Virus record (IMG/VR): IMGVR_UViG_3300036860_000538
Span: 1 to 43,842 of that record
Origin: a virus
Length of the DNA stretch: 43,842 nucleotides
Reading direction: 5' to 3' (one strand)
Position 1 is the first letter of the stretch; every line of letters begins with the position of its first letter. Position numbers and translations under genes: made by a program. Shown one piece after another: positions 42,021-43,784 of this stretch. Below the pieces are notes generated by a model. It worked only from the letters and a program-made list of their open reading frames with translations. It was not told the DNA's origin and ran no database searches.

Positions 42021-43139
42021 TCACCGCGCCGCCCCGATGGCCTCGAGGGCGGATACCGCCTCGCGCTGCATCGTCGGCGTCACGTGCGAGTACAGGTCCA
42101 TCGTGATCGATGTCCGCGAGTGGCCGAGCATCTCGCTCACGATCTTCTGGTGGACGTCGGCACCGAGCAGCAGCGTCGCCACGGTGTGGCGCAGGTCGTG
42201 GATGCGAATCTCGCTCGCGCCCGCGCGGCGGAGCATCGCGATGAAAGCGCGACGCAGGGTGGACTCCGCGAGCGGCTGGCCGTCTTCGCGGGTGAAGACC
42301 AGGTCGAGGTCGCGCCAGGCCGCGCCGGCGGCGAGACGGAGCTCGCGCTGCCGTGCGCGCTGGCGGCGCAGCGCGAGGACCGCATCGGTCGTCAGCTGGA
42401 TACGGCGCTTCCCGGCCTTCGACTTTGGCTTCGCGAAGTTGAGCACGCCCTCGACGCGCTCGAGCACCGTGCTGAGGTGGATCGCGCCGGCGTCGAGGTC
42501 GACGTCGCGCCAGCGCAGCCCGAGGAGCTCGGACTTCCGCATGCCCGTGCGCCCCGAGACGATGAAGAACGGGCCGTACGTCGCATCGCCCGAGGCCTCG
42601 CGCAACAGCGCGCGGTACTCGTCGCCGGTAAGCGTCGCCATGTCGCGGGCCTCGACCGCCGGTGGCGTGACCAGGTCGGCGACGTTGCGCATGACGCGCC
42701 CGCGGCGCATCGCGAGCTCGAGGCACTTGTGGATCGTCGCGTGGATGTGGTGGACCGTCTGCGCGGAGAGACCGCTCGCGATCTTGTCCGCATAGAGCCG
42801 GTCGAGCCGCTCCGGCGTCACCTTCGCGAGCGGCGTCCTGCCGATCGCCGGCACCACGTGATTCCGCATGCGCTCTTCGTGCTTGCGCCAGCCGCTGTAG
42901 CGCAGCGGGCCGCGCGCAGCCGCGAGCCACTCCCCCGCCCAGGCCTCGAACGATTGCGGGCTCGCGACGATGAGTTCGCCGCGCTGCTGCGCTGACAGCG
43001 CCGTCTTCAGCTTCTCCGCGACCTCGGTCCGCGTGGTGCCGTAGAAGCACCTACGTCCGTCGTCGAGCGAGACCCGCGCCTCCCAGCGCCCGTCCTTCCG
43101 CTGGCTGATCGTCCCTTCGCCATTTCCGCGCCTACTCAC
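42021..43139 (-). CDS. int: Tyrosine-recombinase integrase
   Basis: 372 residues from GTG 43139 with GGGAGG seven bases upstream; a longer frame to 43190 lacks a good site. N-terminal arm-binding domain (GEGTISQRKDGRWEARVSLDDGRRCFYGTTRTEVAEKL), SAM-like core-binding domain (FEAWAGEWLAAARG...), and catalytic domain with Arg in GMRKSE, Lys in the KSKAGKRR hairpin, HDLRH, LGHSR and the nucleophile in LYSH. It integrates phage DNA at a host att site, most likely a tRNA-Cys gene given the adjacent attP. Expression probably starts at the symmetric promoter 43175-43218. Confidence 0.9.
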   Translation of the reverse strand: MSRRGNGEGTISQRKDGRWEARVSLDDGRRCFYGTTRTEVAEKLKTALSAQQRGELIVASPQSFEAWAGEWLAAARGPLRYSGWRKHEERMRNHVVPAIGRTPLAKVTPERLDRLYADKIASGLSAQTVHHIHATIHKCLELAMRRGRVMRNVADLVTPPAVEARDMATLTGDEYRALLREASGDATYGPFFIVSGRTGMRKSELLGLRWRDVDLDAGAIHLSTVLERVEGVLNFAKPKSKAGKRRIQLTTDAVLALRRQRARQRELRLAAGAAWRDLDLVFTREDGQPLAESTLRRAFIAMLRRAGASEIRIHDLRHTVATLLLGADVHQKIVSEMLGHSRTSITMDLYSHVTPTMQREAVSALEAIGAAR

Positions 43140-43174
43140 ACTGCACCTCCCGCGAAATCGTGGATAGCTCTCCG

Positions 43175-43218
43175 GGTGGCATCTTGACACCCAACGCGCA
43201 GTATGTCAATCTGCCACC
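43175..43218. promoter_or_regulatory. Near-symmetric divergent promoter/palindrome
   Basis: GGTGGCA-TC-TTGACA (43175-43189), 14 bp, TGTCAA-TC-TGCCACC (43204-43218): 15-base inverted arms with two mismatches. Each strand carries TTGACA followed after 17 bp by CAATCT (plus) or CAAGAT (minus), so two overlapping promoters point toward the tRNA-like RNA (+) and integrase (-). Confidence 0.5.
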
Positions 43219-43221
43219 TGT

Positions 43222-43308
43222 GGAGAGAGAAGCGTCGAGGAGACGCCGCGGTGTTAGAGCCGGTCGGGCGGACGTGAGTCCGCTGGGGTTCGAGTCCCCC
43301 TCTCTCCT
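43222..43308 (+). tRNA. Class II tRNA-like RNA with aberrant anticodon arm
   Basis: GGAGAGAG/CTCTCTCC gives an eight-pair acceptor, followed by a GGGG-TTCGAGT-CCCC T-arm (8+4 pairs instead of 7+5). GCGTC-GAGGA-GACGC gives a five-pair D-stem with a five-base loop, and GCGGAC-GTGA-GTCCGC gives a long variable arm. The region for the anticodon arm (43247-43266) pairs only three bases cleanly around an eight-base loop TGTTAGAG. Serine/leucine/selenocysteine tRNAs have long variable arms, and 8+4 acceptor branches are known from allo-tRNAs. A promoter ends just upstream and a terminator follows, so it is likely transcribed. Confidence 0.4.
43242..43260 (+). repeat. 19-bp direct repeat, copy 1
   Basis: GACGCCGCGGTGTTAGAGC, inside the tRNA-like element (D-stem 3' side to anticodon loop). 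Identical copy at 43366-43384. Confidence 0.8.
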
Positions 43309-43329
43309 TCTCCTTGCAGACATGGAACG

Positions 43330-43350
43330 ACCGCCCCGTTGGGGGCGGCC
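43330..43350 (+). terminator. Intrinsic terminator after tRNA-like RNA
   Basis: CCGCCCC-GTTG-GGGGCGG hairpin (seven GC pairs) followed by CCGTTTCGT, the usual form of a terminator behind tRNA genes in GC-rich bacteria. T-tract is short. Confidence 0.55.
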
Positions 43351-43365
43351 GTTTCGTCGCGCGAG

Positions 43366-43384
43366 GACGCCGCGGTGTTAGAGC
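43366..43384 (+). repeat. 19-bp direct repeat, copy 2
   Basis: Same 19 bases as 43242-43260. Here they run on into A-CTTCCAA, which is the anticodon loop of tRNA-Gly(UCC), so this copy resembles a tRNA 5' half (D-arm end TAGAGC plus loop) without a 3' half. It lies just before the ribosome binding site of the next gene. Confidence 0.7.
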
Positions 43385-43412
43385 ACTTCCAAGTCTACCG
43401 GAGGTGGCGAGC

Positions 43413-43784
43413 ATGGCTGAGCCCGTAAAGACGACCGTCCGCCTGACCGACAAGGACCAGGCCAACATCGAGAAGATCATCAAGACCGGCATCGCCACGA
43501 ACATCAGCGAGGCGATCCGCGTCGGGCTCGCGGTCGCGCCGCAGTTCCTCGGGCTCTGGCAGGCGCTCATGTCGGCGAAGATCGACAACATCGGCGACAC
43601 GCTCACGCAGCTCCAGGAGGATCTGCGCCGCGAGCGCAACGAGCAACCCGACGACTGGTCGAAGACGCACATCAGCATCGAGGAGCTCCGACGCGAGGCG
43701 CCGAAGTACGCCGGCGCCGAGTGGCTCGAGGAGATGCTCGAGGCCCACTCGAAGCGGATGCAGCGCGCTCAGCGAGCTCGCTGA
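43413..43784 (+). CDS. Ribbon-helix-helix regulator-like protein
   Basis: 123 residues from ATG 43413 with GGAGG eight bases upstream. TTVRLTDKDQANIEKIIKTGIATNISEAIRVGLAVA is an RHH (CopG/Arc-like) fold: one strand and two helices. The rest is a charged helix (NIGDTLTQLQEDLRRERNEQPDDW...) and a helical end. Such proteins act as repressors or antitoxins; no toxin gene is beside it. It lies between the integrase promoter and the excisionase-like gene, so control of integration is plausible. Confidence 0.65.
   Translation: MAEPVKTTVRLTDKDQANIEKIIKTGIATNISEAIRVGLAVAPQFLGLWQALMSAKIDNIGDTLTQLQEDLRRERNEQPDDWSKTHISIEELRREAPKYAGAEWLEEMLEAHSKRMQRAQRAR

Follow-up and report, generated by a model that had tools for sequence, protein, structure and literature searches.

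What kind of RNA is encoded by the short structured element near the end of IMG/VR virus record IMGVR_UViG_3300036860_000538, from a soil phage? All 43,842 nucleotides of this record were analyzed, and this whole stretch of DNA is referred to below as the window. A preliminary description, made from the letters of the sequence and without database searches, had placed an expressed class II tRNA-like RNA at 43222-43352, its acceptor branch split 8+4 and its anticodon arm unpaired, and had offered three readings of it: a tRNA mimic, an att-derived chimera, or an allo-tRNA variant.

Fold of the element and its flanking signals

ARAGORN, whose use had been proposed as a check, called a single gene in the window, at 43222-43308 on the plus strand, and labeled it 'tRNA-???'. 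The full cloverleaf is the minimum-free-energy fold of the element (z = -2.84 relative to shuffled sequences), and together the fold and the ARAGORN call confirm a class II tRNA-like RNA with an 8+4 branch, which occupies 43222-43307 of the longer interval first claimed. Its acceptor is formed by 8 bp (GGAGAGAG/CTCTCTCC) and its T-stem by 4 bp (GGGG/CCCC), and this division of the branch is the correct one because the fifth T-stem pair of a 7/5 arrangement, T49-C65, is mismatched. The five-pair D-stem, short D-loop (5 nt), and long variable arm (GCGGAC/GTCCGC) that had been described are all present in the fold. The anticodon arm is indeed abnormal: Either three of its five pairs are canonical or, as the fold prefers, the region forms an alternative hairpin of four pairs with a 6-nt loop. 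Across the whole window, no Rfam family scored above its own cut-off. The tRNA-like gene, its arms, and the features that flank it are as follows (L010 is a related provirus, described in the next section):

43222-43307, plus strand: class II 8/4 tRNA-like gene; anticodon UAG at 43255-43257, U73, CCA not encoded
43232-43246, plus strand: D-arm with a 5-bp stem, GCGTC/GACGC, and a 5-nt loop, GAGGA (fold, family comparison)
43247-43267, plus strand: anticodon region, three of five pairs canonical, loop GTTAGAG (fold, comparison with L010)
43184-43212, plus strand: promoter-like site; -35 TTGACA (43184-43189), 17-nt spacer, weak -10 CAATCT (43207-43212) (sequence, spacing in L010)
43175-43218, no strand assigned: long inverted repeat, GGTGGCATCTTGACA / TGTCAATCTGCCACC, over the promoter-like site, between the tRNA and the divergent integrase (sequence read directly)
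43331-43348, plus strand: G+C-rich hairpin, CCGCCCC/GGGGCGG, between the tRNA and the leader of the following gene (sequence; a hairpin in L010 too)
42021-43190, minus strand: tyrosine integrase, divergent from the tRNA gene (Pfam Phage_integrase, PHROG integrase)

Expression of the tRNA-like RNA is plausible, judging from the sequence on either side of it. The promoter that was said to end just before the element has a perfect -35 hexamer but a poor -10, and a consensus promoter scan of the window found none at this site. In L010, the equivalent promoter (TTGACT-17-TAGATT) is sigma-70-like (9/12) and lies 9 nt before GGAGAG, i.e., upstream of the tRNA; the promoter spacing is identical in the two phages. 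The inverted repeat that covers the site is a possible operator. As for the terminator that had been placed after the element, a strong hairpin does lie at 43331-43348, but it has no U-tract, a terminator scan of the window found none, and a role in termination is doubtful.

A serine-type scaffold with a UAG anticodon

A terminase search returned three related viral contigs, and L010 alone spans the tRNA region. It is a provirus of a Chloroflexota host, in which it adjoins recG and rsmD, and its tRNA, which ARAGORN calls 'tRNA-Leu(TAG)' and which lies on the same strand as that of the window relative to the terminase, is intact, with an 8/4 branch, a 5-bp D-stem, all five pairs of the anticodon stem, the anticodon UAG, G73, and an encoded CCA. 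The two tRNAs are homologous, with ~30% sequence divergence, and their stems are kept, the anticodon stem of the window excepted. The order of the cassette is also common to both phages, namely promoter position, tRNA, hairpin, copy of a tRNA segment, Shine-Dalgarno sequence, and a gene for a small ribbon-helix-helix-like protein. L010 is the only related phage in which the same cassette was found; it is absent from G148, a related provirus with a terminase 77% identical. Relatives reached through the integrase were seven distant phages, none of them with such a tRNA, and a search of cultured phages for DNA relatives of the window gave short tRNA-like and chance matches only. A 'tRNA-Cys' called by ARAGORN in L020 was discarded, as it lies inside coding sequence.

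The wider family was searched for with a DNA pattern that prescribed the GGAG acceptor and part of the T-arm sequence and placed no constraint on the D-arm, anticodon, and variable arm, so that the sample is limited to the GGAG acceptor class. This pattern matched ~90 viral loci, nearly all of them serine tRNAs of tRNA-rich phages, and when the criterion used for the window was applied to them, 60 distinct loci proved strictly 8/4. From 39 of these phage 8/4 serine tRNAs, with the window and L010 left out, we derived a covariance model, R2, and in this family two-sided changes numbered 157 compared with 44 expected, the 5-bp D-stem included. The covariation check that had been proposed for the stems thus came out in their favor, both through compensatory changes between the window and L010 (in the variable arm, acceptor, and anticodon pairs) and through the strong covariation of the D-stem among the 39 phage tRNAs.

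The window scored 57.3 bits with R2 (E 1.2e-9) and the L010 tRNA 64.5 bits, whereas the best score in 177 Chloroflexota host-class genomes was 44.6 bits, and the top matches examined there were ordinary tRNA-Ser. Therefore, the window element is a member of the phage 8/4 serine-tRNA scaffold, a membership established computationally. Like the window element, the phage 8/4 tRNA-Ser have a GGAG-type 8-bp acceptor, a 4-bp T-stem, and a long variable arm; they usually have A9, together with a 5-bp D-stem and a short AGG loop, and their R2 scores are in the range of the window. They mostly lie within tRNA arrays, whereas that of the window stands alone beside the ribbon-helix-helix-like gene and the copied segment. 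Although the tRNA type is already known, the UAG anticodon and the arrangement with a copied segment are unusual on phages. The surprise lies in the anticodon and the linked repeat rather than in the 8/4 fold, which serine tRNAs of tRNA-rich phages regularly adopt.

Several observations were made on these phage tRNAs in passing. They are widespread in tRNA-rich phages (L110-L199; e.g., L148:3879-3960 and L127:2332-2413), and some are missed by ARAGORN. In Streptomyces phage Sham (ON645339), the tRNA-Ser given in the annotation matches the 8/4 model, and in Streptomyces phage TunaTartare (L235:338-425) there is an unannotated tRNA-Ser gene, over the 3' part of which a hypothetical protein is annotated. 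In the literature searched, we found no description of phage 8/4 serine tRNAs with a 5-bp D-stem.

All 128 distinct phage matches to R2 have serine anticodons (GCU 42, CGA 33, UGA 29, GGA 24), so the UAG of the window and L010, which corresponds to the leucine codon CUA, is a real departure, and with UAG on a serine scaffold the window element is not a tRNA-Ser. CUA makes up ~2% of the leucine codons in the phage, as counted from an approximate gene set with one gene read out of frame. An anticodon stem with as few pairs as the window's 3/5 occurs in eight of the 128 phage relatives. U73 and the missing CCA are not decisive, because, in a set of 60 phage relatives, G73 is present in 48 and absent from 12, and 34 lack CCA. 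Efficient decoding by the window tRNA is nevertheless doubtful, given U73 and the weak anticodon stem.

Allo-tRNAs have a serine-type body of 8/4 or 9/3 form with another anticodon; their serine identity is independent of the anticodon, and suspected links to transposons or toxin-antitoxin systems have been described for some members (PMC7609411; Mukai et al. 2017 reviewed there). The allo-tRNA variant is the reading that best fits a class II 8/4 RNA on a phage serine scaffold with a non-serine anticodon, and we consider it probable that the window element is a phage-borne, serine-type 8/4 tRNA with UAG, i.e., an allo-tRNA-like gene. With allo-tRNAs of the 8/4 type, compared here by description only, it shares the 12-bp 8/4 branch, long variable arm, long D-stem, and non-serine anticodon; it differs, as does L010, in its setting in Chloroflexota phages, its UAG, and its linked leader repeat, and the window copy alone differs further in U73 and the weak anticodon stem. 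We infer that such a tRNA is expressed and, in the case of L010, would be charged with serine by the host SerRS, as expected of an enzyme that recognizes its tRNAs through the acceptor, variable arm, and G73, without regard to the anticodon; the charged tRNA would then decode rare CUA codons as serine. The window tRNA is probably cotranscribed with the downstream ribbon-helix-helix-like gene. Because its anticodon stem has 3/5 pairs and its discriminator is U, the window copy has probably undergone some decay or been repurposed, perhaps for regulation.

Decay could also have gone further. That the allo-tRNA gene was inherited in the phage lineage and is a non-functional relict in the window is conceivable, though we think it unlikely. 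Two anticodon-stem mismatches, U73, the weak -10, and the lack of CCA would all suit such a relict, and allo-tRNA pseudogenes with destabilized stems are a described precedent (PMC7609411). However, pairing is complete in the acceptor, D, variable, and T stems even though the sequence has diverged by ~30% from L010, and the copy of the segment in the leader is still exact.

What is known of allo-tRNAs stems largely from short metagenomic reads. The allo-tRNA-like gene described here is tied to Chloroflexota phages, to an intact homolog in a provirus, and to a protein gene linked to it by a copied anticodon segment, which makes two questions testable: whether phage-infected cells use such tRNAs to recode rare CUA codons as serine, or whether the tRNA has a role as a regulatory RNA.

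The copied D/anticodon segment and the gene downstream

A 19-nt repeat is absent from the preliminary description. Found computationally, it links the tRNA to the leader of the gene that follows:

43242-43260, plus strand: repeat copy 1, GACGCCGCGGTGTTAGAGC, 19 nt, from the 3' strand of the D-stem to the anticodon loop (repeat comparison)
43366-43384, plus strand: repeat copy 2, exact over 19 nt, in the leader of the following gene (repeat comparison)
43384-43406, plus strand: predicted leader hairpin, CACTTCC/GGAGGTG, pairing the Shine-Dalgarno sequence GGAGG at 43400-43404 (fold)
43413-43784, plus strand: gene for a small ribbon-helix-helix-like protein, 123 aa (weak matches only)

In both the window and L010, the leader copy matches the tRNA of its own phage, although the segment differs between the two phages; in L010, the agreement is exact at 16/16 positions and reaches 23/24 along a longer stretch. 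In both phages, the copied segment stops at its 3' side just past the anticodon loop. If the duplication predates the split of the two phages, the identity of the copies within each must have been maintained by selection or repair or restored by renewed duplication. Only one of 128 other phage 8/4 tRNAs is followed within 300 nt by a copy of 14 nt or more, and there the copy is common to an adjacent serine tRNA. The exact 19-nt repeat was absent from the viral contigs searched, and a pattern for the leader and Shine-Dalgarno sequence matched 34 further loci, with a tRNA or the repeat in none. The leader repeat was also considered as a second, degraded tRNA, and a covariance-model search of the leader found none.

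The small protein encoded at 43413-43784 has weak ribbon-helix-helix/ParD-antitoxin matches only, and its predicted structure is poor (mean pLDDT 50). Its homolog in L010 is 33% identical overall and 46% identical across the first 46 residues; at L010:3566-3700, by the host junction near the 3' end of rsmD, this ribbon-helix-helix-like ORF is apparently fused or truncated at its C-terminus. Besides L010, no relatives of the protein were found in viral contigs or cultured phages, and a relaxed search of the 177 host-class genomes returned background only.

The leader copy can be read in three ways: as a mimic that shares a binding partner with the tRNA, as a DNA operator at which the ribbon-helix-helix-like protein binds and which extends into the tRNA gene, or as a remnant of recombination. 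Under the first, one factor, either protein or RNA, would recognize both the tRNA segment and its copy in the leader, and the tRNA-like RNA would titrate this factor and so control the gene, in parallel with mRNA leaders that mimic tRNA anticodon arms. The exactness of the copies within each phage, their shared 3' boundary, and the scarcity of comparable copies in other phages all favor such a regulatory mimic, as does the retention of every stem in the window tRNA save the anticodon stem. In the window, moreover, the leader copy ends 15 nt upstream of the Shine-Dalgarno sequence, which itself lies inside the predicted hairpin. However, folding did not find this hairpin in L010, where the Shine-Dalgarno sequence lies outside it and the leader has no good anticodon-like stem; the L010 tRNA appears fit for translation; and the model draws on two examples and a hypothetical binding partner. 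The mimic first proposed is thus hinted at by the copied segment and the weak anticodon stem, but the allo-tRNA variant is the better reading, and we hold a regulatory mimic to be rather unlikely, and less likely than a relict. A combination of the two, in which an allo-tRNA would act as a regulatory RNA and compete with the mRNA leader of the ribbon-helix-helix-like gene for one binding partner, seems to us a similarly tentative proposal.

An att-derived chimera would have arisen if the adjacent integrase recombined at the anticodon loop, leaving the leader copy as a remnant similar to attL, with the 5' part of a tRNA joined to phage DNA. A tyrosine integrase does adjoin the window tRNA, the anticodon loop, where the repeat ends, is a known place of crossover, and a Xanthomonas phage has the 3' end of a tRNA-Ser next to its integrase. 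We nevertheless consider this origin improbable, and the recombination-remnant reading of the leader copy is weakened, because L010 has the same cassette with no neighboring integrase, its junction with the host lies near the rsmD 3' end, ~400 bp from the repeat, and no host tRNA bearing the L010 core emerged from 177 related genomes, the true hosts not among them, in which matches to this core (up to one mismatch) were at the level of a reversed-pattern control. The tRNA-Ser 3' end of the Xanthomonas phage, PBR31 (L236:358-427), includes CCA, is missing from the annotation, and is likely an attP.

Other tRNA identities and chromosomal counterparts

It is very improbable that the window element is an ordinary phage tRNA-Leu(UAG) or a tRNA-Sec. 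The anticodon is UAG, and model R1 finds host tRNA-Leu(UAG) as well; R2, however, gave two host tRNA-Leu(UAG) 21-22 bits only, and the 7/5 branch of a canonical tRNA-Leu(UAG) is blocked in the element by the T49-C65 mismatch, while U73 stands where tRNA-Leu has A73. The resemblance to tRNA-Sec that had been noticed is only partial: This is the best Rfam family for the element, but at 26 bits its score falls short of the cut-off of 47 (RF01852), the branch is 8/4 rather than 8/5 (13 bp), and the anticodon is UAG rather than UCA. One tRNA-Sec scored 42 bits with R2.

In type III toxin-antitoxin systems of the ToxIN kind, a promoter, a structured repeat RNA, a hairpin, and a gene for the ToxN endoribonuclease form one transcription unit. 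The window shares the order of promoter, structured RNA, hairpin, and protein gene, but its RNA is a tRNA rather than repeats and its protein is ribbon-helix-helix-like, and such a system was rejected because there is no ToxN-like endoribonuclease downstream, where the weak ribbon-helix-helix/ParD-antitoxin matches are the only ones.

Counterparts of the allo-tRNA-like gene are found on Chloroflexota chromosomes, where two 8/4 tRNAs located with model R1 scored 63.2 (UGG, L200) and 52.2 bits (UAG, L201) with R2. They have the scaffold of the window, non-serine anticodons, and G73; unlike the window, they have no nearby copy of the D/anticodon segment and, in the stretches read, no adjoining ribbon-helix-helix-like gene. 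The tRNA with UGG, a proline anticodon (L200:1318-1409, minus strand, and L232), lies directly downstream of an HNH nuclease-like ORF in a Chloroflexota genome, with same-strand ORFs of methyltransferase and restriction types, as judged by eye, and a transposase-like ORF close by. The UAG tRNA (L201:1501-1594, minus strand, and L233:8314-8409) lies on a Chloroflexota chromosome ~1.6 kb from HTH/ImmA-type and PIN-like ORFs which, again by eye, are a possible toxin-antitoxin pair.
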